NCBI GenBank assembly: GCA_009920665.1
Contig: RFZL01000023.1
Location: forward strand, 1 to 36,703
Direction: 5' to 3'
Origin: Alphaproteobacteria bacterium
Lineage (GTDB): Bacteria; Pseudomonadota; Alphaproteobacteria; Puniceispirillales; Puniceispirillaceae
DNA length: 36,703 bases
Below are positions 15,924-36,703 of this stretch, piece by piece. Numbering within the stretch: position 1 is the stretch's first letter; the number at the start of each line of letters is the position of its first letter. The notes below the pieces were generated by a model, which saw only the letters and a program-made list of their open reading frames with translations, had not been told where the DNA came from and did no database searches. Position numbers and translations under genes: made by a program.

Positions 15924-15937
15924 AATAACCCCCAAAC

Positions 15938-15968
15938 AAAAAATGAGGGCGCCCGAAAGGCGCCCTCA
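15938..15968 (-). terminator. Intrinsic terminator/attenuator between binding protein and permease
   Basis: On the minus strand TGAGGGCGCC, a 5-base loop and GGCGCCCTCA form a perfect 10-bp stem, directly followed by six T. It begins 9 bases after the TAA of the TAXI binding protein and lies just before the permease start. Partial readthrough would give many binding-protein transcripts and few permease transcripts, a common need in binding-protein-dependent transporters. Confidence 0.88.
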
Positions 15969-15977
15969 CTCATATGA

Positions 15978-16970
15978 TTACATCAAGCCTGCTTCTTTAT
16001 AGAAGCGCTCTGCGCCCGGATGCAGCGGGATGAGAACGCCCTTCAGAGCGGTCGAAGGCTGGATGGCCTTACCCTTCGGGTGACCCTTGTCCAGCAGCTT
16101 GCGGGTGTTGTCGTTCCACAACGCCTTGGTGATGTCGTAGATCAGGTCTTCCGGCTGGTCGATGGAGGTGATGAGCTGGCCATTCACCGCCACGGTGTTC
16201 ACATCATAACCGATGTTTTCATAGACGCCCGAAGTGATCACATCCTCGACATAATAGGGAATGATCTCGTTGATCGCCTTCTGCTCATCGGCAGAGAAGC
16301 TGTAGAGATCAAAGCCCTTTGTCGAACCAAGCTGGATCAACGCCGACAGCGGTGTGCCGGCAGCATAGAAGAACGCGTCGATCTGGCCGTCGGCAAGACG
16401 CTGCGCACTCTGACCGACATTCAGCTCATACTCGTCAGCCTTGATGTCGTAATGCTTCAGAATCATGCGCACGGAAACCTGCGTTCCCGAACCTGCCGCA
16501 GCCACACCGACCTTCATGCCGTTCAGGTCCTTCAGGCTGTTCAGCTTGGTGCCCTTTTTCAGGACAAGGTGCATGCTTTCCGGATACAGGTTGGCGATGA
16601 CACGGATCTTGTCCTTCTTGTTGTCAACGAACTTGCCTTCACCATTGTAGCTCTGCACAACGGTCTGGGCGCCGGCCAGACCGGCATCAAGCGAGCCTGC
16701 CTGGATGGCGTTTGCGTTGAACACGGACGCTGTCGTCGAAACCGCGATGGCTACGAGACCGGGAACGCCGCAGCTGCCGCCCTTGTCACAGGGGCGCGAC
16801 CCCGGAGGGTTGGAAATCGCGTTCGCGATCAAACCACCGATCGGGTAGTAGGTGCCGCCGGTACCGCCGGTGCCGATCTTGAAGAACCGCATCTCCTGTG
16901 CGGAAGCGACGCCTGCGAAAGCAAAACTTGCTGTCAGCAGGGTTGCGACTGCTTTAACCCATCTTTTCAT
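15978..16970 (-). CDS. TAXI-family TRAP transporter solute-binding protein
   Basis: A 330-residue periplasmic protein. The first 24 residues (MKRW, hydrophobic core, then VASA) form a signal peptide with likely cleavage between A24 and Q25. The mature start FKIGTGGTGGTYYPIGG is the hallmark of TAXI proteins, followed by an SCGVPGLVAIAVSTTASV segment and GVAAAGSGTQV near the second lobe. The frame opens earlier at 16994, but AGGGAG is 7 bases before the ATG at 16970. It captures the ligand and docks on the permease encoded next. A two-cysteine segment, PCDKGGSC, is visible near the ligand lobe and could form a disulfide in the periplasm. The ligand is unknown. Confidence 0.92.
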   Translation of the reverse strand: MKRWVKAVATLLTASFAFAGVASAQEMRFFKIGTGGTGGTYYPIGGLIANAISNPPGSRPCDKGGSCGVPGLVAIAVSTTASVFNANAIQAGSLDAGLAGAQTVVQSYNGEGKFVDNKKDKIRVIANLYPESMHLVLKKGTKLNSLKDLNGMKVGVAAAGSGTQVSVRMILKHYDIKADEYELNVGQSAQRLADGQIDAFFYAAGTPLSALIQLGSTKGFDLYSFSADEQKAINEIIPYYVEDVITSGVYENIGYDVNTVAVNGQLITSIDQPEDLIYDITKALWNDNTRKLLDKGHPKGKAIQPSTALKGVLIPLHPGAERFYKEAGLM

Positions 16971-17176
16971 TATATATCTCCCTGGCTTGGCCATGTTGAA
17001 ACCCGGGGAGATTCAAAGTCGATTTGTCTGCGTCCCTCACAACCAAGGCAAGACATGACTCCTGCCGTGACTTGCGAGGTGGTGTTTGCAGCCATCCCGA
17101 TGACCTCCCCTGTCTCGCCATGAAAGCCTGAATCACCCGATCACCTCAAGCGAAAAAACGAGATTGGATTAACTAT

Positions 17177-22041: not shown

Positions 22042-23481
22042 CTAGGCCTCCAGAACCCACGTGTCCTTGGTGCCGCCGCCCTGGCTTGAATTCACGACAA
22101 GCGACCCCTTCCGGAGTGCGACGCGGGTCAGTCCGCCGGGCGTGACCCTGATTCCCTCGGGCGAAACCAGAACAAACGGGCGAAGATCGACATGCCGCGG
22201 CGCAAGGCCACTTCTTGTCAGGACTGGCACTGTCGACAGCGACAAGGTTGGTTGCGCGACATAACTCGCCGGACTGGCCTTGAGCTTGCGCGTAAAGGCG
22301 GCAAGTTCACGCTTGCTTGCTGCTGGCCCGACAAGCATGCCATAGCCGCCTGACCCATGGACCTCCTTGACCACGAGTTCAGAAAGATGTGCCAGCACAT
22401 AGGCAAGGTTGTCCGGCTCGGAACAGCGCCAGGTCGGGATGTTGTCGAGAAGCGGTTTTTCACCCATATAGAATTCGATGATTTCGGGCATATAGGAATA
22501 AATCGCCTTGTCATCGGCGATACCCGCGCCCGGGGCGTTGGCAAGCATGACCGCGCCGCTGCGATAGGCATCGAAAAGCCCCGGCGTGCCAAGCACACTG
22601 TCCGGGTTGAAGGATAGCGGATCAAGAAACTCATCATCGATCCTGCGGTAGATCACATCAACCGGGGCCGTGCCTTCGGTGGTGCGGATGATAACACGTC
22701 CATCACGCACCTCGAGGTCCGATCCCTGCAACAGGTCAACACCCATCTCGTCAGCAAGAAAGGAATGTTCATAATAGGCAGAATTATGAATGCCGGGCGT
22801 GAGAACAGCGATATTGGGGTTGTCGATGAAAGAGCGGGCACATCCGGCGAGCGACCTGAACAGCTGCTTCGGGTAGTCACTCACCGGCTGAACGCGGTGG
22901 CTGGCGAACAGTTCGGGAAACATCTGCAGCATCGTGGCGCGGTTCTCGATCATGTAGGAAACGCCGGACGGCACCCGGGCGTTATCCTCCAGAACATAGA
23001 AATCATCCGGACCCGTCCGAACGATATCAACCCCGACAACATGGGTATAGACGTTGCCCGGCGGGGTGAAGCCGCACATTTGCGGCATGAAGGCCTTGTT
23101 CCCGTGGACCAGTGCCGATGGAACGATCCCGGCGCGAATGATTTCCTGGCGATGATAGATGTCGGCAAGGAAGGCATTGATCGCCGCCACCCTCTGAACG
23201 ATGCCACGCTCTAGCCGGCGCCATTCACTGGCCGCAATGATCCGCGGAATCAGGTCAAAGGGGATGATCCGCTCCTCACCGTCGCGCCCCCCATAGACAT
23301 TGAAGGTGATCCCGATCCGCCGAAACAGTTCCTCGGCCTGAAGCGACTGTTTCGAAAGCTTTCGGAAATCCTGATCGTGAAGCCAGGCCAGCAATGCGCG
23401 GTAGGGTTCGCGTGCTTCGGGCCCGGATCCATCGGGCCCGGATCCATCCAACACCGGTCCATCTAACATTTCGTCAAACAT
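22042..23481 (-). CDS. Circularly permuted type 2 ATP-grasp protein of the Anbu operon
   Basis: A 479-residue ATP-grasp-fold ligase-like enzyme, first gene of the Anbu operon. Typical stretches are FNVYGGRDGEERIIPFDLIPR near residue 55, a VLEDNARVPSGVSYMIENR segment near 165, and VKEVHGSGGYGMLVGP near 360, the glycine-rich ATP-binding part. ATP-grasp enzymes join a carboxylate to an amine, so the operon may make a peptide-like modification that the transglutaminase-like and Anbu proteins act on; this is inference. The first 25 residues contain a short Gly-Pro-Asp-Ser repeat from a DNA duplication and precede the domain. An upstream 195-base gap should hold the operon promoter; no clear boxes could be fixed. 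Confidence 0.9.
   Translation of the reverse strand: MFDEMLDGPVLDGSGPDGSGPEAREPYRALLAWLHDQDFRKLSKQSLQAEELFRRIGITFNVYGGRDGEERIIPFDLIPRIIAASEWRRLERGIVQRVAAINAFLADIYHRQEIIRAGIVPSALVHGNKAFMPQMCGFTPPGNVYTHVVGVDIVRTGPDDFYVLEDNARVPSGVSYMIENRATMLQMFPELFASHRVQPVSDYPKQLFRSLAGCARSFIDNPNIAVLTPGIHNSAYYEHSFLADEMGVDLLQGSDLEVRDGRVIIRTTEGTAPVDVIYRRIDDEFLDPLSFNPDSVLGTPGLFDAYRSGAVMLANAPGAGIADDKAIYSYMPEIIEFYMGEKPLLDNIPTWRCSEPDNLAYVLAHLSELVVKEVHGSGGYGMLVGPAASKRELAAFTRKLKASPASYVAQPTLSLSTVPVLTRSGLAPRHVDLRPFVLVSPEGIRVTPGGLTRVALRKGSLVVNSSQGGGTKDTWVLEA
23418..23447. repeat. 15-bp in-frame tandem duplication in the ATP-grasp gene
   Basis: CGGGCCCGGATCCAT is present twice without spacer, and a degenerate third copy follows at 23448-23462. 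It codes for the low-complexity DGSGPDGSGP part near the N-terminus of the ATP-grasp protein. Being a multiple of three it leaves the frame intact. Confidence 0.9.
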
Positions 23482-23676: not shown

Positions 23677-24414
23677 TCATATCTTCAATTCCATCCTGTA
23701 TTGGATACAATCATGCCGGTAATGCACCTCGGCACAATAGACCAGCCTGTTCGCGTTGTCGGTGATGTAGCGTTTGACCCTGGCAACAGGATCACCCGGC
23801 AGAACTTTCAGCGCGGTAGCCACCACATGGTCGGCCTTTTCGATCTGCAGCGTCTGCCAGGCCCTGCCAATTTTCAGATCCATGTTTTCAAACAGCACCG
23901 GCAATGCCAGCCTCTGGCGGAAATCCGTCTCGTTTCGGCGGAACAGCTCTTCGTCGATATGGAGAGTAATCAGACAGTATCTCATACCGTCGCGAATATG
24001 CGCCCGTTTCATGAAATAATAGGATTGGCAGAGGGTGAATTCAGCTCCCGACAGGGCCGGCATGCCAACGCCCTCATCCAGCGGCTCCTGCTCCGGACTG
24101 TCATCCGCATAGAGCCGGATCAGGTCACTGACCGTCGATTCGAGATGCAGCGGCCCGGTGTCCGCGCGATCCGCCAATACCGACGTGCCGCGGCCGCGTT
24201 CAGACAGCACGAGACCATCCTCGCGCAGCAGATCAAGCGCCTGGCGAATGGTCACCACCGAAACGCTGAAACGCGCAGCCAGGTCGGGGATTGGCGGCAG
24301 AAAATCACCCGCTTTCCAGACGCCATCCGCAAGCTGCGCGCGCAGGATTTCATACACCTGATAATAAAGTGGCAATGGCTGCGCCCGATCAAGGAGAGAG
24401 GCGGCATGTGTCAT
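23677..24414 (-). CDS. GntR-family transcriptional regulator (HutC type, UTRA domain)
   Basis: A 245-residue regulator: N-terminal winged helix (about 14-80) and C-terminal UTRA ligand domain (about 95-240). The helix-turn-helix is seen in PDLAARFSVSVVTIRQALDL and the wing in SERGRGTSVL, both classic GntR. UTRA proteins bind small metabolites and release DNA. The frame extends upstream to 24528, but GGGAGG stands 7 bases before the ATG at 24414, and the extra residues match nothing. It is divergent from the GMC oxidoreductase gene and most likely represses it together with the aldehyde dehydrogenase; a 12-bp direct repeat in the shared promoter is the likely operator. Confidence 0.9.
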   Translation of the reverse strand: MTHAASLLDRAQPLPLYYQVYEILRAQLADGVWKAGDFLPPIPDLAARFSVSVVTIRQALDLLREDGLVLSERGRGTSVLADRADTGPLHLESTVSDLIRLYADDSPEQEPLDEGVGMPALSGAEFTLCQSYYFMKRAHIRDGMRYCLITLHIDEELFRRNETDFRQRLALPVLFENMDLKIGRAWQTLQIEKADHVVATALKVLPGDPVARVKRYITDNANRLVYCAEVHYRHDCIQYRMELKI

Positions 24415-24447
24415 CCTGTATCCCTCCCGACGCGGAGTTCTGGTCTG

Positions 24448-24471
24448 TATTTGTCCACATATTTGTCGACA
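24448..24471. promoter_or_regulatory. Tandem 12-bp repeat, likely GntR operator
   Basis: TATTTGTCCACA is followed at once by TATTTGTCGACA. The second unit includes the perfect palindrome TGTCGACA and the first a near version. The pair lies 34 bases upstream of the GntR start and about 120 bases upstream of the GMC start, within their 174-base divergent gap, where an autoregulating GntR protein would bind. Each unit spans just over one helical turn. Confidence 0.5.
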
Positions 24472-24588
24472 TGGTTGCCGGCGCGACCGACATCCGGTCC
24501 GGCCTCCCTGTGACAGGACCCTTGCCAACCGGCCATACAGGATTTAAAGTCATAACATAATAAATATAGAATGTTTAGGAATTTCAAG

Positions 24589-26196
24589 ATGCGTTCCGCA
24601 AACACGTCCTTCACGCATGTCATTGTTGGCGCGGGATCAGCCGGATGCCTGCTTGCGAACAGGTTGTCGGCGCATCCGGACAATCATGTTCTGGTTCTCG
24701 AGGCCGGCGGCTGGGATCGAGATTTCTGGCTGAAATTGCCAGTCGGGTATTTCAGGTCAATCAACAACCCGTCAGTCTCACGTCACTTCGCAACCACCCC
24801 CGGCGAAGGCACGGCCGGCCGGTCGATCGACTGGCCCCGTGGCAAGGTGGTCGGCGGGTCAAGCAGCATCAATGGGCTGATCTTCATTCGTGGCCAGAAG
24901 GACACGTTTGATGAATGGGCGGCACAGGGAAATAATGGCTGGTCCTTCAATGAGGTGCTTCCCTATTTTCGGCGCCTCGAATCATTTGCCGGTCCACCCT
25001 CACAATATCATGGCGGCCATGGCGAGCTTCAGGTCTCGCAGCTTCGCAATGACCACCCCTATTGCGAGGCCTGGCTGCGGTCGGCCAGCCAGTTTGGCCT
25101 GCCCCGCAATGATGATTTCAATGGTGTCACCACGCATGGTGTGGGCGCCTATCACCTCTCGATCGGGCAAAGGTGGCGCAGCAGCGCCGCAAAGGCTTTC
25201 CTCAAGCCGGCCATGAAGCGGCCAAACCTGACGGTGATGACCAATGTGCTGGTGGAAAGGATCATCATCAATGACAGGCAGGCCAAGGGCGTGCGACTTC
25301 GCCGCGATGGCAATGCCATGGACATCATGGCGAGCCGGGAAGTCATACTTTGCGCCGGCGCCATCCAGTCGCCACAAATTCTGCAGCTTTCCGGAGTCGG
25401 CCCGGGCAAACTCCTGAAAGACCTCGATATCCCGGTGATCATCGACAGGCCGGGCGTTGGCGGTAATCTGCAGGATCATTACCAGATGCGCACAATAGTC
25501 AGGATGAAGACCGGAAATTCGCTGAACAATCAGGTCCGCAACCCGATTTCCCTTGCAAAGATGGGGCTGGACTGGGCCATCCGGGGGCGGGGGGCGCTGA
25601 CCGTCGGCGCCGGCCAGGTCGGTGGCGGCGCCCGCACCGAACATGCGCCGACCCCGGCGCCGGACATCCAGTTCAATGTGATGCCGCTCTCGGTCGACAA
25701 GCCCGGGGATCCCCTGCACCGCTATTCGGGATTCACCGCCGCGGTCTGGCAGTGTCATCCGGATTCGCGCGGCCGGGTGGATATCGTCTCGAACGATCCT
25801 GCCGCCGATCCACGGATTGATCCGAATTACCTGAGTGCCGAGCGTGACAGGAAAACCATCGTCGCCGGCATCAAGATGCTGCGCGATATTTACCAGCAGG
25901 CCGAGTTCCGCCATCTGTGGGATGTCGAGATGGTACCGGGACCGGACGTCAGGACCGACGATGAAATCCTCGATGCGGCGCGGCGCGGCGGTGGTACGGT
26001 CTATCACTGTACCGGCACCTGTCGCATGGGCGTTGATGAGGATGCGGTTGTCACACCTGATCTGAAGGTGCGCGGCATCGACGGGTTGCGGGTTGTCGAT
26101 GCGTCTGTCATGCCGGTCATTACATCGGCAAACACCAACGCCCCCACCTATATGATCGCCGAAAAGGCAGCCGATATTATTTTATCTCAATCATAG
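24589..26196 (+). CDS. GMC-family FAD oxidoreductase (choline dehydrogenase-like)
   Basis: A 535-residue glucose-methanol-choline oxidoreductase that should oxidise a primary alcohol to the aldehyde. FAD motif GAGSAG at 14-19, VLEAGG near 42, the second GMC signature PRGKVVGGSSSING near 84-97, and AGAIQSPQILQLSGVGP near 255. The active-site His is in YHCTGTCRMG and its Asn partner in TSANTNAPTYMIAEKAAD near the C-terminus. An ATG at 24571 is also in frame, but AGGAA is 8 bases before the ATG at 24589. The aldehyde dehydrogenase follows after 54 bases. Choline is a fair substrate given the choline-sulfatase-like genes nearby, yet many GMC enzymes annotated this way act on other alcohols. Confidence 0.88.
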   Translation: MRSANTSFTHVIVGAGSAGCLLANRLSAHPDNHVLVLEAGGWDRDFWLKLPVGYFRSINNPSVSRHFATTPGEGTAGRSIDWPRGKVVGGSSSINGLIFIRGQKDTFDEWAAQGNNGWSFNEVLPYFRRLESFAGPPSQYHGGHGELQVSQLRNDHPYCEAWLRSASQFGLPRNDDFNGVTTHGVGAYHLSIGQRWRSSAAKAFLKPAMKRPNLTVMTNVLVERIIINDRQAKGVRLRRDGNAMDIMASREVILCAGAIQSPQILQLSGVGPGKLLKDLDIPVIIDRPGVGGNLQDHYQMRTIVRMKTGNSLNNQVRNPISLAKMGLDWAIRGRGALTVGAGQVGGGARTEHAPTPAPDIQFNVMPLSVDKPGDPLHRYSGFTAAVWQCHPDSRGRVDIVSNDPAADPRIDPNYLSAERDRKTIVAGIKMLRDIYQQAEFRHLWDVEMVPGPDVRTDDEILDAARRGGGTVYHCTGTCRMGVDEDAVVTPDLKVRGIDGLRVVDASVMPVITSANTNAPTYMIAEKAADIILSQS

Positions 26197-26250
26197 CATG
26201 CGCTGCCAATAAGGCGTATCAGTTACCGTGGAAACACAGAGGAGTCCCGA

Positions 26251-27687
26251 ATGCCCTATCCAGATTTGAAAATGCTTATTGCCGGAGAGTGGACCGACGG
26301 CAGTTCGGGCAAGAGCGAACCGGTCATCTGCCCGGCAGATGGCAGCACCATCGGAACCCTGCCGCATGCCAGCCCGGCCGATCTCGATGCAGCCTTGCAG
26401 AGCAGCCTTGACGGCTTCAATGTCTGGCGGAAGATGACCCCGCACAGCCGCCAGGCGGTTCTGGAAAAGGCCGCCTGCCATCTTGAGGACAGGTTCGAGG
26501 ATATCAGCGCCAATCTGACGCGTGAAATGGGCAAGCCGATTGGTGAATCCCGGATCGAACTTCGCGTCGCCATCGACCTGTTGCGCTGGTATGCCGAGGA
26601 AGGCAAGCGGGTCTATGGCCGGATCATCCCGTCACGCTTTCCGAATATGCAGCATGAGGCCCGCAAGGAGCCGGTCGGGCCGGTGGTCGCTTTCGTTGCC
26701 TGGAATTTCCCGGCGACCAATACCATGCGGAAAGTCGCCGGCGCGCTGGCTGCCGGCTGCTCGATCACCATCAAGCCGAGCGAGGAAACCCCGGCAACAG
26801 CCATTGCCATTGGCCGCGCCCTGACGGATGCAGGCCTGCCGGCCGGTGTCCTGAACATCGTCTTTGGCGTGCCGCCGGAAGTCTCGGAGCATCTTCTCGC
26901 CTCGCCAATCCCGCGCAAGCTCAGCTTCACCGGAAGCGTTCCCGTCGGCATCCATCTTCAGCAGCTGGCGGCACGGAACATGATTCGCTGCACCATGGAA
27001 CTTGGTGGTCATTCGCCGGTGATGGTGTTCGAGGATTGCGACATCGAGGCGGCGGCAAAACTCTGCGCGGCCGGCAAGTTTCGCAACGCCGGACAGGTCT
27101 GTATTTCACCCACACGGTTCTTCGTTCAGGACAGCATCCATGACAGGTTCCTTGCCCTGTTCAAGGAACAGGTCGAGGCGGTAAAGGTCGGCGACGGCCT
27201 TGATGAAGCGGTGAATATGGGGCCGCTGGTGGCCGAACGCCGTATCGACATCATGGATGGCTTTGTCTCGGATGCCGTCAGCAACGGCGCCGAACTTCTG
27301 GTTGGCGGGTCCCGCATCCAGAGCGAGGGAAGCTTCTTTGCCCCGACATTGCTTCAGGAGGTGCCGGATACGGCGAGGATCATGACCGAAGAGCCGTTCG
27401 GGCCCATCGCGCCCACCGCCAGGTTCTCTTCGCTTGAAGAGGTGATCGACCGGGCCAACAGCCTGCCCTTTGGACTGGCCGCCTACGCCTTTACAGGCAG
27501 CGCGAGAACCGCCGGTGTCCTGAAGCAGGAAATCGAGGCTGGCATGCTGGCCGTCAACTCGCTGCATGTGCATTCGGTCGAAACGCCCTTCGGAGGCCTG
27601 AAATTCAGCGGCTATGGGCATGAGGGCGGCATCGAGGGCCTCGAGGTGTTCCTCGCCACCCGATATTCAAGCGAGATCTATGGCTGA
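26251..27687 (+). CDS. NAD(P)-dependent aldehyde dehydrogenase (succinate-semialdehyde dehydrogenase-like)
   Basis: A 478-residue ALDH-fold enzyme converting an aldehyde to its acid. Catalytic residues are present: N152 in WNFP, K175 in IKPSEE, general base E250 in ELGGHSP and nucleophile C284 in NAGQVCISPTRF. The C-terminal FGGLKFSGYGHEGGIEG segment is typical of the GabD/SSADH-like branch. GAGGAG lies 8 bases before the ATG. It follows the GMC oxidoreductase and is probably cotranscribed, making an alcohol-to-acid module. Betaine aldehyde dehydrogenase activity would fit the choline-sulfate model, but the sequence branch looks nearer to semialdehyde dehydrogenases, so the aldehyde is open. 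Confidence 0.9.
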   Translation: MPYPDLKMLIAGEWTDGSSGKSEPVICPADGSTIGTLPHASPADLDAALQSSLDGFNVWRKMTPHSRQAVLEKAACHLEDRFEDISANLTREMGKPIGESRIELRVAIDLLRWYAEEGKRVYGRIIPSRFPNMQHEARKEPVGPVVAFVAWNFPATNTMRKVAGALAAGCSITIKPSEETPATAIAIGRALTDAGLPAGVLNIVFGVPPEVSEHLLASPIPRKLSFTGSVPVGIHLQQLAARNMIRCTMELGGHSPVMVFEDCDIEAAAKLCAAGKFRNAGQVCISPTRFFVQDSIHDRFLALFKEQVEAVKVGDGLDEAVNMGPLVAERRIDIMDGFVSDAVSNGAELLVGGSRIQSEGSFFAPTLLQEVPDTARIMTEEPFGPIAPTARFSSLEEVIDRANSLPFGLAAYAFTGSARTAGVLKQEIEAGMLAVNSLHVHSVETPFGGLKFSGYGHEGGIEGLEVFLATRYSSEIYG

Positions 27688-27692
27688 TGTCA

Positions 27693-27720
27693 GTTGCCCG
27701 TCAGCACCCCGGCGGGCAAC
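27693..27720. terminator. Bidirectional hairpin between convergent genes
   Basis: GTTGCCCG and CGGGCAAC form an 8-bp stem with a 12-base loop in the 34-base gap between the aldehyde dehydrogenase and the sulfatase. On the plus strand it is followed by CCTATTTT. The T-run is short, so the efficiency is uncertain, but place and symmetry fit a shared terminator. Confidence 0.55.
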
Positions 27721-27721
27721 C

Positions 27722-29287
27722 CTATTTTGGCGGGCGGGGGTTTTGCGGCGGGGTTGTCGGCACAAAGGGATAGCGCTTGCGCGCCTTGGTCGCCGTCGTA
27801 CTGGGATCGACAGCCCCGCGAACATAGGCCCGGCTGGCATCGAATGGCGGGCTGTAGTCCCATGACGGAAATTCCCCGTTCTTCATCGCCTCCTGCACAA
27901 ACAGACGTGTCTTCTGCGACGCCAGGACGCGCTGGCCGAGGGCGGCCTCGTCCCAATGACCCGCCACGCGGTCCCGCATCGCCATGATGGTATCCGCATA
28001 TGCCGGTTCCGCGGCAAGATTACGCTGTTCATCCGGGTCGGCAGCCAGGTCGAAAAGCATTTCCGGGTCAGCGCCACATCGCACATATTTCATGTTCCGA
28101 TGACGACACATCAATGCCGGGTCATGCACGCCCTCGCCGCAATATTCGAAAAAGACAAGATCATCGTCGCTTCCCGCCTCGGGAAGATCGAACAGGCTTC
28201 TGCCGTCAATGGGCGCGACATAGTCTGCATAGCTGCCGCCATTCGCGATGTCGGCAAAGGTTGGCAGCAGATCAACAAGGGTGGTCAGCGCGGTTTCGCA
28301 ATGACCCTGTTTCAGACCCGGCCCCATCGCAATCATGGGCACGCGCACCGAAGCCTCATAGGGATTGAACTTGTACCACATGCCGCGCTCGCCAAGCATG
28401 TCACCATGATCGGAGATGACGAACACATAGGTGTTTTCAAGCTGACCAATCTTTTCAAGCGTGTCGACAAGCCCGCCGACAAGCGAGTCAAAATAGCTTG
28501 TCATGGCAAAATAGGCGTGACGGGCCTTGCGAAGCTGTTCGGTGGTGATGTCGAATTCATCCTGCCTTATGGTCATATAATAACGTTGTGACCATGGATC
28601 GCGTTCCTCATAGGGAATGAAACCCACCCGCGGCATGGCGATCGCCTCATGATCATAGAGATCCCAGAAATCCTGAGTTGTCACAAAGGGATTATGTGGG
28701 TGGGTAAAGGACGCATGAACAAAGAACGGGCGTTCATCATCTGATCTGGCAATGTCAAAAAGTTCCTGCTTTGCCATGTTGAAGACATGGTCGTCATAAT
28801 CAACTTGCAGGCTGCGCTCGCAGGTGCCCGCCTCAACGACGCTCAGAAGACTCATCCGCGAGGGCGCATATTCCTCCTCATATTGCGACCAGTCCGCTGT
28901 CCAGCTGAAATCAGAGGGATAAATATCCGTTGTCAGTCGGCGCTCGAACCCGTGAAGCTGGTCAGGCCCCACGAAATGCATCTTGCCGACAAGACTGGTC
29001 TGATAGCCAAGCGTGCGAAGATAATGTGCGTAGGTCGGCTCGGAAGACAGGAACTCGCCGGCATTGTCATAGACACCGACATTCGATGGCAACCGTCCCG
29101 TCATCATGGAAGCGCGCGACGGGCCACATACCGGGCTGTTGCAATAGCTGTTGAGATAGGTTGTGCCGCGCGCGGCGATACGATCCATATGCGGCGTCAG
29201 CGCATAGGGGGTGCCATACGCCTTGAGGCACAGAGCGGTGAGTTGATCCGCCTGAATGACCAGAATATTCGGTTTTGACACGACCAT
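27722..29287 (-). CDS. Choline-sulfatase-like type I sulfatase (BetC-like)
   Basis: A 521-residue sulfatase. The formylglycine motif is C54-G-P-S-R58, and metal-binding D14 lies in QADQL; SDHGDMLGERG near the middle gives further metal ligands. The KMHFVGPDQLHGFE stretch followed by LTTDIYP is, from memory, a hallmark of choline-sulfatases. There is no signal peptide, so the substrate must be cytoplasmic. The frame runs up to 29350. Upstream of ATG 29287 the AGGGGG touches the ATG, so initiation at the GTG two codons later (29281) is also likely. It is divergent from the ROK regulator and convergent with the alcohol/aldehyde module. A maturation enzyme (FGE) is not in the window. Confidence 0.87.
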   Translation of the reverse strand: MVVSKPNILVIQADQLTALCLKAYGTPYALTPHMDRIAARGTTYLNSYCNSPVCGPSRASMMTGRLPSNVGVYDNAGEFLSSEPTYAHYLRTLGYQTSLVGKMHFVGPDQLHGFERRLTTDIYPSDFSWTADWSQYEEEYAPSRMSLLSVVEAGTCERSLQVDYDDHVFNMAKQELFDIARSDDERPFFVHASFTHPHNPFVTTQDFWDLYDHEAIAMPRVGFIPYEERDPWSQRYYMTIRQDEFDITTEQLRKARHAYFAMTSYFDSLVGGLVDTLEKIGQLENTYVFVISDHGDMLGERGMWYKFNPYEASVRVPMIAMGPGLKQGHCETALTTLVDLLPTFADIANGGSYADYVAPIDGRSLFDLPEAGSDDDLVFFEYCGEGVHDPALMCRHRNMKYVRCGADPEMLFDLAADPDEQRNLAAEPAYADTIMAMRDRVAGHWDEAALGQRVLASQKTRLFVQEAMKNGEFPSWDYSPPFDASRAYVRGAVDPSTTATKARKRYPFVPTTPPQNPRPPK

Positions 29288-29363
29288 CCCCCTTTGATGT
29301 TTGAAGGCTTCCTTGATGTTATGGCAAGGAGGCTGCCAGACCAGCCACATAATTTGCCTTGAC

Positions 29364-29390
29364 TTATTATTTAATTAACTAAAATAATAA
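29364..29390. promoter_or_regulatory. AT-rich palindrome, likely ROK-repressor operator
   Basis: TTATTATTT-N9-AAATAATAA is a perfect 9-bp inverted repeat in an AT-rich island between the divergent sulfatase and ROK regulator genes. TTATTT/AAATAA half-sites with a spacer of about this size resemble the NagC/Mlc operators bound by ROK repressors. A TTGACT hexamer just before it (29359) could be a -35 box of the plus-strand promoter, so bound repressor would block transcription of its own gene and of the TRAP genes. Confidence 0.65.
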
Positions 29391-29418
29391 AATCAACACA
29401 AGGCTTTTTCCGACCCTT

Positions 29419-30669
29419 ATGGCGTTGCCGATGCGTTTTGACATGTCAAACAGTGATGGGGTTCGCAAAACCAATCGCGCCAGAGTCATGCGGCTGATCC
29501 ATGACTCGCCCGGTGTTGACCGAACCGAACTTGCGCTGTCGGTTGGCGTCAGCAATGCCGCCATCACCAATATCGTCAACGAGCTGCTCCGCGCCGGCCT
29601 GGTTCAGGAAGTCGATTCACAGCACAGTCCGGGCGCCCGTGGCCGCAAACGTGTCGGGTTGCAGATCGATGGCACCGGCGGCTACGTGATGGGCGTGAAC
29701 GTTCTCGCCACCAATGTCAGCATCGTTCTTGCCGATATATGCGGCAGCGTGATTGATGAAACTGACGTCAATCCAACGCAGATCCGCAACCCCGACCAAA
29801 CCCTTTCAGAAATACAGAAAACGGCCGATGTCGTACTGGACCGCCACAATGTGCCTGCGGACCGGCTGTTTGGCGTCGGCTTCTCTGTCGCCGGCTATCT
29901 TGATGCCGAAAGCCGTAGCCTTCAGCGCGCGCCCTATCTTGGCTGGCCGAGTTTTGACCTGAAGAGGCGCCTGCAGGGCATCTTTGGAAGCATTGTCACG
30001 ATCGAGAATGTGACGCGCTGCACCGCTCTGGCGGAAAACAGATTTGGCGTTCTGTCGGGCATCAATGACATGGTGCTGATCCGCTCTGCCCTTGGCCTTG
30101 GCGGCGCTGTCATCACCGCCGGCCAGTTGCTTCGCGGCAGCCAGAATTTTGGAGGTGACATGGGACATCTGCTGGCTGTCCCGGAAGGTCCGGCCTGTTC
30201 ATGTGGCAAGCACGGTTGTCTGAACACGGTGGCCTCCGGTTGGGCCGTCATGCACAAGCTTGGCACCACCAGCAGATCCTATGAAACTGTGAACCAGTTC
30301 CGCACCCAGAATTCCCAGCTTCGCCTTCTTCTGGATGCCGACAACGCCCGGGCCGATGCCGTGGAACGGGCAATGAACGAAGCCGGCACCGCATTGGCAA
30401 AACATACCATGACAACGCTTCAGGCATTGAATCCCGAGGCGGTCTGTCTGACTGGCCCGCTTGGCCGCCATGATGCCTATTCGCAGGCATTTCGCGACGC
30501 GCTGACCGCAATGGGGCTGGAAGCGCGGATCATCCTTGCCAGCGAGACCGAGATTATCACCCCGGCAATGGCCTCGGTATATCTGGCGCTTTCAGACATG
30601 GTGTATTCGCCGCAATTCAATTTCAGCCAGATATCCAATATCGACCGGGTTGAGGCGGCATCCAGATGA
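29419..30669 (+). CDS. ROK-family transcriptional repressor
   Basis: A 416-residue regulator: N-terminal winged helix (about 18-65, with RTELALSVGVSNAAITNIVNELLRAG) and a C-terminal ROK sugar-kinase-like domain (about 85-390). The zinc motif appears as C260-x-C262-x4-C267 preceded by H250. The kinase catalytic Asp expected after IEN (residues 195-197) is Val198, so it should sense a ligand without phosphorylating it. No good Shine-Dalgarno is seen; ATGs at 29431 and 29443 are alternatives. The stop overlaps the TRAP permease ATG in ATGA, so regulator and transporter are translated together. Its ligand is probably the imported compound or a product of it. Confidence 0.9.
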   Translation: MALPMRFDMSNSDGVRKTNRARVMRLIHDSPGVDRTELALSVGVSNAAITNIVNELLRAGLVQEVDSQHSPGARGRKRVGLQIDGTGGYVMGVNVLATNVSIVLADICGSVIDETDVNPTQIRNPDQTLSEIQKTADVVLDRHNVPADRLFGVGFSVAGYLDAESRSLQRAPYLGWPSFDLKRRLQGIFGSIVTIENVTRCTALAENRFGVLSGINDMVLIRSALGLGGAVITAGQLLRGSQNFGGDMGHLLAVPEGPACSCGKHGCLNTVASGWAVMHKLGTTSRSYETVNQFRTQNSQLRLLLDADNARADAVERAMNEAGTALAKHTMTTLQALNPEAVCLTGPLGRHDAYSQAFRDALTAMGLEARIILASETEIITPAMASVYLALSDMVYSPQFNFSQISNIDRVEAASR

Positions 30670-32558
30670 GCACGATCTCGAACCCGCAGCTGGATGGCAT
30701 GCCCAGAATGGCGTTCGCGCTTGTCAGCATCGCCCTTGTTTCATTTTCCCTGTATACGGCCATGTTCGGTGTGTTTCCGGACATGATCCAGCGCGGCGTG
30801 CATCTCTCGGCTGTGATCGCGCTTGTCTATATCCGTTTCTTCGGCTTCTCGGCACCCGGAGCGGGGCCTTTGGGACTTGGCTGGAGTCACGCCAAATTTC
30901 TTGTCCTTGGCGTGGTCGGTGTTGGCGTTGCCGGCTATCAGTTCCTTTTCTATGACGATGTCACCTCGCGTTACGGGTCCATCGCCAGCTATGAAATGCC
31001 AATCGCCATCCTGGCCATCATATTGCTTCTTGATGCCACCCGCAGAACCATCGGATGGTCGATGGTCGGGCTTGCCGTATTTTTCCTGATCTATGCGCAT
31101 TTTGGCCGCCAGTTTCCGGGCCTTCTGGCGCACCGCGGATATGACGTGGTCCGCATTCTGGAACAGGTTTATCTCGGGGCGGATGGAATCTACGGCACAC
31201 CGCTTGGCGTCAGCGCCACCTTTGTCATCATCATCGTCGTTCTGGGAGCGTTGCTGGAAAAGACCGGCGCCAGCGGGGTCTTGATGGATATCGCGGTTGC
31301 GATGACCAGAAAGTCACGCGGCGGCCCGGCAAAGGCGGCAGTTGTCGGCAGCAGCCTGATGGGGATGATTTCGGGAACGGCGGTGGCAAATGTTCTGACC
31401 ACCGGCACAATCAGCATTCCACTCATGCGTCGTGCCGGCTATCGCCCCGCAGTGGCAGGTGCTGTCGAGGCGGTGGCCTCGACCGGCGGGCAGTTGATGC
31501 CGCCGATCATGGGGGCGGCGGCCTTCCTGATGGCGGATATCATGGAAGTGCCCTATCTCGAAATCACCAAGGCGGCACTGCTGCCGGCCTTGCTTTTCTA
31601 TATCGCGGTCTTCTGTTCCGTCCATCTCGAGGCCTTGAAATCGGGGCTGCAGCCGCTTGATGATATTGACGTTCCGAATGTTGGCCAGTCGCTTCGCAAT
31701 AGCGGGCATGTGCTGTTGGCGATTCCGGTATTCATCGGCGCGCTGATTTCCGGCTATTCGGTGATGTATTCATCGCTTGCCGGAATTCTCTGCGTGCTTG
31801 GCCTGTCTGTGCTGCGACGGTCCAGCCGGATGTCCCCGCGCCAGCTCATGGCGGCGGCGGTGTCCGCATCCGAGGCCATTCTGCCGGTGGCGCTGGCAAC
31901 AGCGACGGCGGGCATCATCATCGGCGTGGTTACGCTGACCGGAATGGGACTCAAATTCAGCTCCTTCATCATATCGATTTCCGGAAACAATCTGGTGGTG
32001 GCGCTGGTGCTGACGATGGCCTCGTCGCTGATCCTCGGGATGGGATTGCCGACGGCCGCCGCCTATATCCTTGTTGCCACATTGACCGCCCCGGCGCTTG
32101 TCACCATGGGTGTCGACCTGATGGCAGCGCATATGTTCGTCTTCTATTCCGCCATGCTGTCCTCCATTACCCCGCCGGTTGCCCTGGCAGCCTTCGCCGC
32201 CGCGGCCATTTGTCGTGAACCGCCGATGCGTGTTGCCATGATTTCGGTGAAATACGGGTTTGTGGCTTTCCTGCTCCCCTATTTCTTCGTTCTGGAGCCG
32301 CGCCTGCTGGCCGTTGGCAGCTTTGGTGAAATAGCCGGCGTGTTTGCCATGGCGATCATTGGCATCATCGCCCTTGCCTGCGTTCTCCAGGGTTACGCGC
32401 TGGGTCGCCTGTCCTGGGTGATGCGCATCATTCTGGCTGTGGCATCGCTCAGCGTTCTGATGCCTGAAATGACATTCAAATTTCTTGGAATAGCTATCAT
32501 TCTGGCCACCTTGATAGCTTGGAAAATCGGCCAAACCATGAAGTCTGGCGCTGCCTGA
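30666..32558 (+). CDS. TRAP transporter fused permease (TAXI-associated), second locus
   Basis: A 630-residue fused DctQM-type permease. Signatures are GSSLMGMISGTAVANVLTTGTISIPLM and TGGQLMPPIMGAAAFLMADIM in the first DctM half, and GMGLPTAAAYILVATLTAPALV with SSITPPVALAAFAAAAI in the second. It is shorter than the 696-residue permease at the other TRAP locus and clearly a paralogue of it. The ATG overlaps the ROK stop by 4 bases, and the binding-protein gene follows after 48 bases. It should drive uptake of the ligand whose metabolism the flanking sulfatases serve. Confidence 0.93.
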   Translation: MSTISNPQLDGMPRMAFALVSIALVSFSLYTAMFGVFPDMIQRGVHLSAVIALVYIRFFGFSAPGAGPLGLGWSHAKFLVLGVVGVGVAGYQFLFYDDVTSRYGSIASYEMPIAILAIILLLDATRRTIGWSMVGLAVFFLIYAHFGRQFPGLLAHRGYDVVRILEQVYLGADGIYGTPLGVSATFVIIIVVLGALLEKTGASGVLMDIAVAMTRKSRGGPAKAAVVGSSLMGMISGTAVANVLTTGTISIPLMRRAGYRPAVAGAVEAVASTGGQLMPPIMGAAAFLMADIMEVPYLEITKAALLPALLFYIAVFCSVHLEALKSGLQPLDDIDVPNVGQSLRNSGHVLLAIPVFIGALISGYSVMYSSLAGILCVLGLSVLRRSSRMSPRQLMAAAVSASEAILPVALATATAGIIIGVVTLTGMGLKFSSFIISISGNNLVVALVLTMASSLILGMGLPTAAAYILVATLTAPALVTMGVDLMAAHMFVFYSAMLSSITPPVALAAFAAAAICREPPMRVAMISVKYGFVAFLLPYFFVLEPRLLAVGSFGEIAGVFAMAIIGIIALACVLQGYALGRLSWVMRIILAVASLSVLMPEMTFKFLGIAIILATLIAWKIGQTMKSGAA

Positions 32559-32606
32559 ATCCCGATTTCGGGGTGATAACCGCCAGCAGACAAACAGGAG
32601 GAAACA

Positions 32607-33521
32607 ATGCGTTACCCAAGATTAGCAGCAGCTCTGGCTGTGACCGGCAGTATGTTCATGTCGGCCCAACTGCAGGCAGACACATATCTGTCCATCGGCT
32701 CGAACCCGGTCGGCAACACCGCCTATCAGTGGGCGGCCGGCATTTCCGAGGTTGTGAACAAGAATGTCGAGGGTGTGAATGCCGCGGCTGAAGGCACAAA
32801 GGGATATGTTGCGAATGTCCAGCTGATGCTTGACGGCAAGGTCGAGGCCGGCTTTTCAAACACCAAGCTTGCCTATGAGGCGCACCATGCCGAAGGCGAT
32901 TACGCCGGCCAGAAACCAGGCCAGATTGTGGGCTGGATGTCGATCAAGCCAATCATCTGTCATGTCATTGTGATGGCTGATTCAGACATCAATTCGGTGA
33001 CCGACCTGAAAGGAAAGCGCGTTGGCATGGGTCAGCCCGGCGGCACATCAATGCTTGATGCCGATTTTCTGATGCGCACGGCGGGCCTCGAACCCGGGAA
33101 GGATTTCAAGGATTTCCGCGTGAAGCTGCCTGCCATGGTTGACATGCTTGGCGATGGCCAGCTTGATGCGCTGATCTGGAACGGTTCACCACCAATGCCA
33201 CCAGTGATCAAGCTGAAGTCGCAGCACAAGGTCAGGATTCTGGACATTCCACGTGACCTGTCGGCCAAAATTCGCAAGGCATCACCTGCCTATACAGAAG
33301 GTGACCTGCCGGCCAACACCTATGCCGACCAGCCCAAGGACGTGATGTCCTATCGGCTTGGCAATGTGTTGCTGATTAAATCGGATGTGCCTGAGGACAT
33401 CGTCTACAAGGATGGAATCATCAATGGATTCACCATCCCGCTGCATCCTGGCGCGTTGCGTTACTACCGCGAAGCTGGCGTCCCCGGCATCGAGGAATTC
33501 GCCAAACGTGTCGGCAACTAA
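32607..33521 (+). CDS. TAXI-family TRAP solute-binding protein, second locus
   Basis: A 304-residue periplasmic protein with a signal peptide of about 24 residues (MRYPRLAAALAV start, cleavage likely after LQA). The mature part starts LSIGSNPVGNTAYQWAAGI, the TAXI ligand-lobe pattern, then GKRVGMGQPGGTSM near 135 and TIPLHPGALRYYREAG near the C-terminus, the last also shared with the other TAXI protein. AGGAGG stands at ideal distance from the ATG. It is preceded by its permease and followed by a strong hairpin and the sulfatases. The ligand may be a sulfate ester, by context only. Confidence 0.92.
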   Translation: MRYPRLAAALAVTGSMFMSAQLQADTYLSIGSNPVGNTAYQWAAGISEVVNKNVEGVNAAAEGTKGYVANVQLMLDGKVEAGFSNTKLAYEAHHAEGDYAGQKPGQIVGWMSIKPIICHVIVMADSDINSVTDLKGKRVGMGQPGGTSMLDADFLMRTAGLEPGKDFKDFRVKLPAMVDMLGDGQLDALIWNGSPPMPPVIKLKSQHKVRILDIPRDLSAKIRKASPAYTEGDLPANTYADQPKDVMSYRLGNVLLIKSDVPEDIVYKDGIINGFTIPLHPGALRYYREAGVPGIEEFAKRVGN

Positions 33522-33529
33522 CGAGTCTC

Positions 33530-33555
33530 GCCACACGCCCTCCAGGGCGTGTGGC
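33530..33555 (+). terminator. Strong hairpin after the TAXI binding-protein gene
   Basis: GCCACACGCCCT and AGGGCGTGTGGC are perfect 12-base arms separated by two bases, eight bases after the TAA. No T-run follows, so it may protect the upstream message end or act as an attenuator rather than a full intrinsic terminator. It precedes the sulfatase start by 35 bases. Confidence 0.6.
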
Positions 33556-33590
33556 ATCCATACCATTTCAACATCCAGAAACCCCATCAG

Positions 33591-35105
33591 ATGAAAACAG
33601 TCTTCGTACTTCTGGACTCACTGAACCGAAATGCCATGGAGCCCTATGGCGCAAAGACGGTTCACACGCCGAATTTCACACGGTTCCAGCAGCGGGCGGT
33701 CACCTTTGACAATCACTATGTCGGCAGCCTGCCCTGCATGCCGGCGCGCCGCGACCTTCACACTGGCCGCAGCCATTTCCTGCATCGCAGCTGGGGGCCG
33801 CTGGAACCCTTTGATGATTCCTTCCCCGAGATCATGAAGCAGAACGGCGTCTACACCCATCTTGTAACCGACCATCATCATTATTTCGCAGATGGCGGCG
33901 CCACCTATCACCAGCGCTATTCATCCTGGGATCTGGTCAGGGGTCAGGCCATCGACCGCTGGAAGGCGCATGTCGCGCCCGACCTTGACGCGTTGCAATC
34001 GACCTTTCACCCAATGCAGCGACATCGCACCAATTACATGATCAACCGGCAATTCATGGTGGATGAGGAGGATTATTGTTCACCTCAGCTTTTCGCCCTT
34101 GCCGATGATTTTCTGCAACGCAACCATGACAGCGACAACTGGCTTCTGCAGCTTGAATGTTTTGATCCACACGAACCGTTTCATGCGCCACCGCGTTTCC
34201 GTGACAGATACAAAACATCCTATAACGGGCCCATTCTGGACTGGCCAATCTATGACCGGGTCAAGGAATCACCCGAGGAAATTGCCGAGTTGCGGGCGAA
34301 TTATGCCGCCCTCGTCACCATGACAGATGAATATTTCGGGCGGCTTCTAGATATCTTCGACCAGCATGATCTTTGGGCCGACACCGCTCTTGTTCTGACC
34401 ACCGATCATGGATTCCTGCTTGGCGAGCATGACTGGTGGGCGAAGAACCGGATGCCGGTCTATGATGAAATCGCACACATCCCGCTGATGGTCTATCATC
34501 CTGATTTTGCCAGCGAAGGCGGCAGCCGCCGCAAGGCCTTAACGCAGACAACCGATCTGATGCCGACCTTGCTTGATATGGCCGGGCTGGCGATCCCGCC
34601 GGATGTAACCGGCCATTCGCTGATGCCTGTTCTTGGTGGCGAGGACGGCAAACGAGACAGCGTGATCTTTGGTTATTTCGGCGCCGCCGTAAATGTATTT
34701 GACGGACGACACAGCTATTTCCGCTACCCCGCCGTATCTGGGGCAGAATCCTTGCATGAATACACATTGATGCCAACGCGCATGACAACGCGCTTTTCTA
34801 TTCGTGATCTTCTTGGGGCGACCCTGCACCCGTCCTTTTCCTTCACCAAGGGTGTGCCAGTGCTGAAACTAGACCCAAAAACCGATTATGAGGGACAACC
34901 GGTCGAGGTTCAGGGCATGGGATTTGAAGACTGGCAGTCGGCCCTTTACGATCTTGAAACCGATCCCGGGCAGACAACACCGCTGAACAATTCCGAAATT
35001 GAAACGCATCTCTGCCAGAAGATCATCGCCAACATGGCACGGCTTGATGCGCCACAAGAAGCCTATTGGCGATTTGGCCTGCAGGCACGAGGGGAGACCG
35101 CGTGA
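33591..35105 (+). CDS. Type I sulfatase (arylsulfatase A-like, atypical CMPAR motif)
   Basis: A 504-residue sulfatase lacking a signal peptide. The formylglycine motif reads C49-M-P-A-R53, a legal C-x-P-x-R form but unlike the CxPSR of its neighbours. D9 in LLDSLN is a metal ligand, and TTDHGFLLGEHDWWAKN holds further ligands. DHHHYFADGG near 97-106 is a notable His cluster. It is well diverged from the two choline-sulfatase-like enzymes and lacks their KMHF-GPDQLHGFE segment, so its substrate should differ. The frame opens at 33549; the ATG at 33591 begins the domain, though no good Shine-Dalgarno is seen. It overlaps the next sulfatase by TGATG. Confidence 0.87.
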   Translation: MKTVFVLLDSLNRNAMEPYGAKTVHTPNFTRFQQRAVTFDNHYVGSLPCMPARRDLHTGRSHFLHRSWGPLEPFDDSFPEIMKQNGVYTHLVTDHHHYFADGGATYHQRYSSWDLVRGQAIDRWKAHVAPDLDALQSTFHPMQRHRTNYMINRQFMVDEEDYCSPQLFALADDFLQRNHDSDNWLLQLECFDPHEPFHAPPRFRDRYKTSYNGPILDWPIYDRVKESPEEIAELRANYAALVTMTDEYFGRLLDIFDQHDLWADTALVLTTDHGFLLGEHDWWAKNRMPVYDEIAHIPLMVYHPDFASEGGSRRKALTQTTDLMPTLLDMAGLAIPPDVTGHSLMPVLGGEDGKRDSVIFGYFGAAVNVFDGRHSYFRYPAVSGAESLHEYTLMPTRMTTRFSIRDLLGATLHPSFSFTKGVPVLKLDPKTDYEGQPVEVQGMGFEDWQSALYDLETDPGQTTPLNNSEIETHLCQKIIANMARLDAPQEAYWRFGLQARGETA

Positions 35106-36703
35106 TGTCCAACAAACCCAATATCTTGCTGATCATGGCCGATCAGCTGGCAGCCCAAGCCCTGTCGTTGTATGGCAACAAGATCTGCAAGACTCCCAAT
35201 CTGGAACGCCTTGCGGCCGAAGGTGTCACCTTCGGCAATAATTATTCAAACAATCCCCTGTGCGTTCCAAGCCGCGCCTCGATGATGACCGGTAGGTACA
35301 GCCCTGACATCAAAGTGTATGACAATGCCAATGAAATCCCCTCATCACTTCCAACAATGGCGCATTTCATGCGCGCGCTCGGCTATCAGACCTTCCTGTC
35401 CGGGAAGATGCATTTCATCGGCCCCGATCAACTTCACGGCTTCGAGGAACGGCTGACGACAGATGTGTATCCTGCGGATTACCAATGGATTGCCGACTGG
35501 TCGGCGGGACCGGCTTTCGTCCCCTCAGGGACAGCGCTGAACGGCGTTGTTGAAGCCGGCCCCTGTGTGCGTACGATGCAGGAGGATTACGATGACGATG
35601 TCGAATTCCAAGCCCGTCGAAAGATCTTCGACCTTGCTAGACAGGAGGAGGCCAGTCAGGAAGAAGCGAAGCCGTTCTTTGGCGTTGTTTCCTTTACCAG
35701 CCCGCACACACCCTTCAATGTCGCGCAACAATATTGGGATCTTTATGACCATGATGACATAGGCCTTCCCGATGTGCCTGCAATCCCCTTTGCCGAGCTT
35801 GATTATTTTTCCAAGGCGCTGTTTTTCGCCCATGGCCGACACCGGCACAGTGTGACCGAAGATCATGTTCGCAGAACGCGGCATGCCTATTTTGCGATGA
35901 TCTCCTATCTCGACGAGAAAATTGGCAGGCTGCTTGACCAGTTGGAGGAAACAGGTCTTCGCGACAACACGGTCGTCATCTTCACGTCGGACCATGGCGA
36001 AATGCTGGGCGAACGCGGCATGTGGTTCAAACAATGCTTCTGGGAATGGTCCGCCAGAGTGCCATTGGTCGTGTCGGCGCCGAAAGGCCGGCGCGGCGCG
36101 TGGGTCAAGGCCAACACCTCTCTGGTGGATCTAGCGCCAACCTTGATCGAGCTTGGTGGCGGCGCTGCCGGCCTGCCGGATGAGATGGTCGCCGAGCTGG
36201 CCGGCAATGCCATCACGACATTAATGGATGGTGACGAAGAGACCTGGCCGGATATCGTGATCAGTGACTATCTGGCGATCGGGCCCTGCGTGCCATGCCG
36301 GATGGTCAGGAAGGGACGGTTCAAATACATATTCACCTATGGACAGCCTGATCTATTGTTTGATCTTGTGGCCGACCCAGACGAACTCGAAGATCTTGCC
36401 GCTGCGCCAGATCATGCCGCCACAATTGCCGAACTGCGCCGGATCGCGTTGCAGAATTATGATCCGGAAGCCCTGATGTCAGAGGTGATTGCCAGCCAGC
36501 GGCGGCGACGCTTTATCGCAACAATCCCGGGCACAACATCATCTTGGGATTACGTTGCCTATCAGGGTGATGCTGATCGCTATGTCCGCCGTGACGGCGT
36601 CGATGCCACAAAATCACGCCTGCGTCTGCCCCGCATTGAGCCGGTACCGCCGGACATGCCCGAACTCTCGGCCGAGACCATCGAGCGCATGATGCGGGGC
36701 GAG
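35105..36703 (+). CDS. Choline-sulfatase-like type I sulfatase, cut by the right window edge
   Basis: 533 codons are open from the ATG at 35105, which shares one base with the preceding TGA; no stop occurs before the edge. The formylglycine motif is C53-V-P-S-R57, D13 in MADQL binds metal, and SDHGEMLGERGMWFK gives the central ligands. The segment GKMHFIGPDQLHGFEERL and TTDVYPADY match choline-sulfatases closely. The last visible part, SSWDYVAYQGDADRYVRR, resembles the usual C-terminal end of that family, so little is missing. It has no signal peptide and is a paralogue of the sulfatase at 27722. Together they flank the ROK/TRAP genes. Confidence 0.9.
   Translation, partial: MSNKPNILLIMADQLAAQALSLYGNKICKTPNLERLAAEGVTFGNNYSNNPLCVPSRASMMTGRYSPDIKVYDNANEIPSSLPTMAHFMRALGYQTFLSGKMHFIGPDQLHGFEERLTTDVYPADYQWIADWSAGPAFVPSGTALNGVVEAGPCVRTMQEDYDDDVEFQARRKIFDLARQEEASQEEAKPFFGVVSFTSPHTPFNVAQQYWDLYDHDDIGLPDVPAIPFAELDYFSKALFFAHGRHRHSVTEDHVRRTRHAYFAMISYLDEKIGRLLDQLEETGLRDNTVVIFTSDHGEMLGERGMWFKQCFWEWSARVPLVVSAPKGRRGAWVKANTSLVDLAPTLIELGGGAAGLPDEMVAELAGNAITTLMDGDEETWPDIVISDYLAIGPCVPCRMVRKGRFKYIFTYGQPDLLFDLVADPDELEDLAAAPDHAATIAELRRIALQNYDPEALMSEVIASQRRRRFIATIPGTTSSWDYVAYQGDADRYVRRDGVDATKSRLRLPRIEPVPPDMPELSAETIERMMRGE

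Follow-up and report, generated by a model that had tools for sequence, protein, structure and literature searches.

A TAXI-TRAP transporter linked to three S1 sulfatases in Puniceispirillales: a candidate import-then-desulfate locus for a small sulfate ester

We describe a locus at positions 23677-36703 of a 36,703-nt stretch of DNA (the window) from a marine, SAR116-type alphaproteobacterium of the family Puniceispirillaceae (assembly GCA_009920665.1, contig RFZL01000023.1), in which a TAXI-type TRAP transporter is encoded together with three S1 sulfatases, here named SulA, SulB and SulC, a GMC oxidoreductase, an aldehyde dehydrogenase (ALDH) and regulators of the GntR and ROK families. The window is the whole of contig C130 in an assembly of 2.69 Mb and 214 contigs; labels beginning with C, G, L and f denote our contigs, genomes, loci and families. 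The genes are real and linked across genera. On balance, the locus appears to be an import-then-desulfate catabolic module for a small sulfate ester, for which a sulfated monosaccharide or sugar acid is the likeliest candidate. Import followed by cytoplasmic desulfation is well supported, as we infer from the linkage between the TAXI binding protein and SulB within the order Puniceispirillales and from two rearranged gene sets outside it.

The original prediction, made from the letters of the window, had proposed a locus centred on a TAXI-TRAP transporter for importing and degrading a sulfate ester, with choline-sulfate as its frame of reference. The genes that it listed (TAXI-TRAP, three sulfatases, GMC, ALDH, GntR and ROK) all stand where it had placed them, each backed by Pfam or NCBIfam among the nine genes profile-scanned in 23677-36703 (Table 1); the gene to the left of GntR (22042-23481) lies outside that scan. 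The transporter was assigned to the TAXI-TRAP class by a binding protein that scores over the cut-off and one fused membrane component encoded by the adjacent gene. By inspection, the TAXI N-terminus carries a hydrophobic leader ending QLQA-D and, as had been described, no signal peptide is visible in SulA, SulB or SulC (no predictor was used). TAXI, permease, SulB and SulC run in the same direction with short gaps, and ROK and the permease share 4 nt at their junction. No stop codon of SulC is found inside the window, the gene continuing past the contig end, and its start was placed from the L017 ortholog, where SulB and SulC overlap by 4 nt.

TAXI places were collected from 136 genomes of the order at E <= 1e-30, with identity measured to the TAXI ortholog of L017, and they fell into two groups, one present in 11 of the 136 genomes at 53-100% identity and the other comprising 66 places at no more than 32%. 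SulB lies one to three genes from the TAXI of this clade in all 11 genomes, including G018, in which SulB reaches the contig end after 75 residues and was hence missed by the SulB search. No SulB match was found within 20 kb of the 66 other listed TAXI places (0/66), although short contigs could hide linkage at contig ends. The order ROK-TRAP-TAXI-SulB-SulC is kept in families f1 and f4, and SulA and the permease are located between TAXI and SulB in family f2 (G061 and G065). The records with the closest TAXI comprise one labelled Rhodobiaceae, three of the SAR116 cluster and one Marinovum metagenome-assembled genome. Failure of the cluster to keep together in relatives had been named beforehand as a finding that would count against the locus; on inspection, the linkage holds in every order genome carrying this TAXI clade.

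Outside the order, two genomes carry rearranged versions of the set. In L021, the Marinovum sp. assembly, ROK, TRAP, TAXI (75%) and SulB (76%) are followed by SulC, a weakly matching ALDH (30%), GMC (59%), GntR (39%) and a gene of the MR_MLE enolase family. The other genome, G288, belongs to a different family and is assembled as a single contig of 4.2 Mb; it contains MR_MLE and GntR and, divergently, GMC, ALDH (31%), SulC, ROK (29%), TRAP, TAXI and SulA; its SulB is located far from the TAXI set, with SulA and SulC still beside TAXI. The rearrangements speak for GntR, GMC and ALDH being part of the unit. The TAXI clade was detected in 3 of 385 genomes of a class sample at E <= 1e-60, two from the window's own family and the third being G288, and therefore the module looks rare. 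On plasmids, all 390 records matching the TAXI lie below 60% identity, and the 12 rows listed lie at 28-32%. The core of the predicted import-and-degrade locus is thus supported, the genes being linked in three families of the order as well as in two genomes outside it, whereas its choline-sulfate frame is not.

The sulfatases themselves speak against this frame. SulA and SulC pass the cut-off (433 bits) of the choline-sulfatase model TIGR03417, and SulB, which proved to be the third, divergent sulfatase of the original prediction, fails it with 104 bits. The choline hairpin, GW-X13-WYHN with His145, was examined by mapping SmeCOSe residues through alignment, 14 of 14 checked residues fitting the numbering. 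SulA keeps Trp129 and Glu386 and SulC keeps Trp129, but Trp142, Trp143, Tyr144, His145 and Asn146 are all substituted in both proteins (PSRMS in SulA and PSGTA in SulC at 142-146), and SulC has Ile at 386. Across 68 places of the choline-sulfatase-model family, of which 67 were readable and one was a fragment without the region, the YHN of the hairpin (144-146) occurs in 0 of 29 proteins that have a SulB (>=64% identity) no more than 15 kb away, compared with 24 of 38 elsewhere (Fisher p 1.1e-8, descriptive only as related sequences are treated as independent). The count was assembled from 50 proteins (0/28 near, 16/22 elsewhere) and 18 more places (one near without YHN, 16 elsewhere of which eight have YHN, and the fragment), with the SulA-type proteins of G024:C193 and G031:C65 tallied as elsewhere though both belong to the linked type and lie on short contigs. 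The 14 of 38 members without YHN away from SulB show that there are other non-choline members of the family too. Contig C132 of the window's genome encodes a sulfatase with an RWYHN hairpin and Glu386 beside cytochrome c maturation genes, and no bet gene was seen among its scanned neighbours.

The remaining genes depart from the bet pathway in a similar way. GMC and ALDH stay under the BetA and BetB equivalog cut-offs (Table 1), the regulators are GntR and ROK rather than BetI, and no BetI, BetT or ChoXWV was found among the nine genes scanned. The betICBA and BetT systems of Sinorhizobium and Ruegeria resemble the locus in having a class I sulfatase of the same model followed by a GMC enzyme and an aldehyde dehydrogenase; unlike them, as far as excerpts of PMC12442346 and PMC4744692 describe these systems, the locus has a TAXI-TRAP, a third divergent sulfatase and the ROK and GntR pair, and lacks the choline hairpin and BetI/BetT/ChoXWV. 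According to the same excerpts of PMC12442346, BetT participates in choline-O-sulfate uptake and unknown carriers also exist. Choline-O-sulfate is made unlikely as the substrate by the missing hairpin in SulA and SulC. Two sulfatase types also stood out in this survey: a choline-hairpin protein with Arg at the active-site Lys (GRMH), adjoining cytochrome c maturation genes (L095, 8106-9629), and a PTNLT/Asp386 type without the hairpin (L183, L189 and L192), which is distant from SulB in G054, G001 and G027 but close to it in G017 and G028.

Clues to the substrate came from relatives of SulB. SulB-like proteins occur on 543 plasmid records, with query coverage of >=80% in 87, and 14 stretches, whose SulB relatives share 46-56% identity, were chosen for variety among 40 listed rows of these records. 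A CUT1-type sugar ABC transporter is annotated in line with the SulB relative in 11 of the 14, and a Rhizobium ACO-34A plasmid has a twelfth sugar ABC set as judged by gene sizes and one annotated permease. The Salipiger stretch has a tripartite tricarboxylate transporter downstream of the SulB relative and a sugar ABC set on the opposite strand, and the Paenibacillus stretch has no transporter in line. DUF4432 genes are annotated in five of the stretches, and that of Marinovum algicola also carries a mandelate racemase and a DHDPS-type aldolase. These plasmid operons, mostly of Rhizobiales and Rhodobacterales, are like the locus in placing a SulB relative in line with an importer, and unlike it in using an ABC importer instead of a TAXI-TRAP and, in many, a LysR regulator; other sulfatases are annotated beside the SulB relative in Neorhizobium and Salipiger (SulA and SulC were not specifically sought). 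On the chromosomal side, MR_MLE genes adjoin GntR in L024, L021, L180 and G288, two tested ones reaching no NCBIfam cut-off, and ROK proteins are typical sugar regulators. Taken together, the sugar ABC neighbours of the plasmid relatives, the MR_MLE genes and ROK suggest a sulfated sugar or sugar acid as the substrate, likelier than choline sulfate. A downstream set of aldolase, thiamine pyrophosphate enzyme, SDR and galactarate-dehydratase type in L017 was not counted in the module because L019 and L062 carry other genes there. Other genomes of the family carry SulB paralogs (55-56%) next to CoA-transferase and AMP-ligase genes (L068 and L069).

Several observations weigh against an import-then-desulfate module for a sulfated sugar. 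In G056, SulB (87%) and a different, weaker TAXI-TRAP below the listing threshold for TAXI places are some 5 kb apart, and the SulB of G017 (76%) sits with a DctP-type TRAP, with G026 and G028 looking alike, so the importer is exchangeable. Neither GMC nor ALDH turned up in the sequence examined around L019, L025, L065 and L066, and no MR_MLE gene is known beside the GntR of the window, where the gene at 22042-23481 is the one outside the scan. The loss of the hairpin is not peculiar to the locus, given the 14 of 38 hairpin-less members away from SulB. SulB, together with all nine of its aligned relatives, has [ST]DHxH in place of the usual GKxH, and with Asp for the active-site Lys the chemistry could differ, involving another substrate geometry or another ester. 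Lastly, the TAXI cargoes named in excerpts of PMC12344293 are carboxylates, namely glutamate, 2-oxoglutarate/2-hydroxyglutarate and orthophthalate, and carboxylates also appear in those of PMC11574862.

The nature of these cargoes would fit a TAXI whose cargo is a non-sulfated acid or the product of desulfation, with the sulfatases acting on compounds that enter otherwise, through other carriers able to supply cytoplasmic enzymes, or on internal metabolites. We consider this unlikely, as TAXI, permease, SulB and SulC are co-directional and closely spaced, TAXI and SulB are linked in 11 of 11 genomes, and G288 keeps SulA and SulC with TAXI even though its SulB is elsewhere. The binding protein also departs from the glutamate site. 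Among solved chains, VcGluP (8s4j) and other TAXIs come nearest to it in sequence, and in one low-identity pairwise alignment Tyr45 and Gln93, described as critical in VcGluP in excerpts of PMC11574862, are replaced by Ala39 and Asn85 in the L017 ortholog. At other site positions, Ser75 is replaced by Tyr67, Glu125 by Ile116, Tyr200 by Trp191 and Met201 by Asn192, with Tyr46 kept as Tyr40. Glutamate as the ligand is made unlikely by the Tyr45/Gln93 replacement on this single alignment.

Compared with known transporters, the VcGluP (L-glutamate) and Proteus (2-oxoglutarate) TAXI-TRAPs share with the locus a TAXI binding protein and one fused membrane component, and differ from it, by the same excerpts of PMC11574862, in the two critical residues and in the sulfatases as its gene partners. 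The hpsKLM (2,3-dihydroxypropane-1-sulfonate, DHPS) and iseKLM (isethionate) systems of Ruegeria pomeroyi are likewise TRAP uptake systems for a small organosulfur compound in a marine alphaproteobacterium, as given in an excerpt of PMC9038784. Unlike a sulfate ester, however, their substrates are sulfonates with a C-S bond, and therefore a sulfatase is unneeded. Both are DctP-type TRAPs. No link between a TAXI-TRAP and sulfatases was found in the titles and abstract openings of the literature covered, most subscription journals falling outside this coverage, and we know of no TAXI-TRAP class previously described as carrying organosulfates. Two other TAXI arrangements were noted in the window's genome. 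A second, distant TAXI-TRAP lies at 13833-16994 of the window (TAXI 15978-16994, minus strand; permease 13833-15935, minus strand) beside a pyridoxal phosphate (PLP)-dependent enzyme and DAO-type oxidases, the nearest listed sulfatase being at 27722. L093/L094 (G000:C14:22000-56462) encodes two TAXIs and four S1 sulfatases, three of them recognised by Pfam and the fourth through pieces of TIGR03417, together with a TctA permease and an alkyl sulfatase of the metallo-beta-lactamase type.

With respect to catalysis, the formylglycine motif CxPxR is kept in all three sulfatases (CGPSR, CMPAR and CVPSR), their active-site His residues (PH and DHG motifs) are aligned as in S1 sulfatases, and SulA and SulC retain the active-site Lys within GKMH. 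A gene of the formylglycine-generating enzyme (FGE)-sulfatase family is present in the genome at C193 (244 bits), and L019 and L065 have TauE/SafE-type genes next to the module. The absence of this Lys from SulB would also be consistent with SulB, and perhaps the whole locus, acting on a phosphodiester or phosphonate ester, as phosphonate monoester hydrolases do; the second-best PDB match of SulB is such a hydrolase (4upk), and UgpC-named ATPases are often found beside its plasmid relatives. However, SulA and SulC retain GKMH and fit the sulfatase model, TauE/SafE-type genes occur at two loci, and an FGE gene lies within 3 of the 14 plasmid stretches, though formylglycine also serves such hydrolases, which leaves a phosphoester substrate quite improbable. 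The structure predicted for SulB, built from five sequences, reached a mean pLDDT of 42.9 and was not used. A further S1-type gene (29-30% to SulA) with the nucleophile motif CVSSR, not CxPxR, was observed between SulA and ROK in L024 (14143-15642) and L062 (3290-4789).

The window copy of TAXI has an in-frame gap of 72 nt (24 aa) after 33406 relative to the orthologs of L017, L018, L019 and L021, all four of which are intact. Contig C5 (L060; 3282 bp) aligns end to end with 33407-36703 at 84.6% identity, its first 99 bp being identical, and thus provides a second version of the TAXI end, SulB and SulC that is nearer to L017 (93% and 92%) than the window is in the same region (87% and 81%). 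Because the gap falls exactly where the 99-bp match begins, it was read as a probable assembly fault: the assembly graph probably joins versions from two strains at this position, the gap probably not being real, and the last 3.3 kb of the window may come from another strain. That the organism carries a degraded locus with a truly broken TAXI would agree with the loss of 24 aa from the C-terminal helical part, as located in a predicted model (pLDDT 80.6) used for this purpose alone, but is very unlikely given the coincidence of the gap with the C5 match, the preserved frame and the four intact orthologs. Slighter still is the chance of a variant bet locus, in which the TAXI-TRAP would import choline-O-sulfate, SulA and SulC cleave it and GMC and ALDH oxidise the choline: the TIGR03417 scores, the retained Trp129 and Glu386 of SulA and Trp129 of SulC, and a choline dehydrogenase model as the best-scoring one for GMC speak for it, against which stand the five substituted hairpin residues and Ile386 of SulC, the hairpin and Glu386 sulfatase encoded on C132, the sub-cut-off GMC and ALDH, the lack of BetI, BetT and Cho genes among the nine scanned, and the absence of any known role there for SulB.

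For the favoured module, in which a sulfate ester is imported and then desulfated, the following route is proposed. TAXI would capture the ester, in all likelihood a sulfated monosaccharide or sugar acid, for uptake through the fused TRAP permease, driven by an ion gradient. The FGE encoded elsewhere in the genome would mature cytoplasmic SulA, SulB and SulC, which may cleave sulfate off different positions or off related substrates. GMC and ALDH could then oxidise the released alcohol, and several relatives may pass the resulting acid to an enolase-type sugar-acid dehydratase and then an aldolase, with ROK and GntR sensing the sugar or its acid. In some relatives an additional TauE/SafE-type protein might export the released sulfur anion. 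The features of the locus are collected in Table 1; the true start of SulA is probably downstream of the listed one, as its L017 ortholog has 519 aa.

Table 1 Features in positions 23677-36703 of the window
Feature	Position	Strand	Details
GntR-UTRA regulator	23677..24411	-	PF00392 63.8 bits, PF07702 46.1 bits; listed open reading frame begins farther upstream at TTG
GMC oxidoreductase	24571..26196	+	PF00732/PF05199; under choline dehydrogenase cut-offs (PRK02106 546.6 vs 605, betA 466 vs 732)
Aldehyde dehydrogenase (ALDH)	26251..27687	+	PF00171 496 bits; betaine aldehyde dehydrogenase (BADH, BetB) 364 vs cut-off 669, succinate-semialdehyde dehydrogenase (SSADH) 434 vs 646
SulA, S1 sulfatase of choline-sulfatase model	27722..29350	-	TIGR03417 601 bits; PSRMS for WWYHN at 142-146, Glu386 kept
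ROK-family regulator	29419..30669	+	PF00480 127.5 bits; N-terminal helix-turn-helix
Fused TRAP membrane component (permease)	30666..32558	+	TIGR02123 618 bits vs cut-off 320.65
TAXI solute-binding protein	32607..33521	+	TIGR02122 193.4 bits vs cut-off 84.35; 24 aa fewer than orthologs
99-bp exact match to end of contig C5	33407..33505		likely assembly-graph joint
SulB, divergent S1 sulfatase	33549..35105	+	PF00884 134 bits; Asp at usual active-site Lys; likely start Met at 33591
SulC, S1 sulfatase of choline-sulfatase model	~35102..36703	+	TIGR03417 572 bits; PSGTA at 142-146, Ile at 386

TRAP systems are the most highly expressed SAR116 transporters in South Pacific surface water, according to an excerpt of PMC11366302. 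From the sequence comparisons, we see about even chances that the locus represents a TAXI-TRAP class of SAR116 and some few other marine Alphaproteobacteria that takes up sulfated sugars or sugar acids intact, and that SulA (PSRMS/Glu386) and SulC (PSGTA/Ile386) constitute two unrecognised non-choline subfamilies misnamed by the curated model. If so, sulfate esters would join the short list of TAXI cargoes, and SAR116-type ocean bacteria would gain a route to small sulfated molecules without outer enzymes. Passing the choline-sulfatase model would then not necessarily mean choline-sulfate use, and the hairpin would offer a simple sequence test for correcting choline-sulfatase labels.

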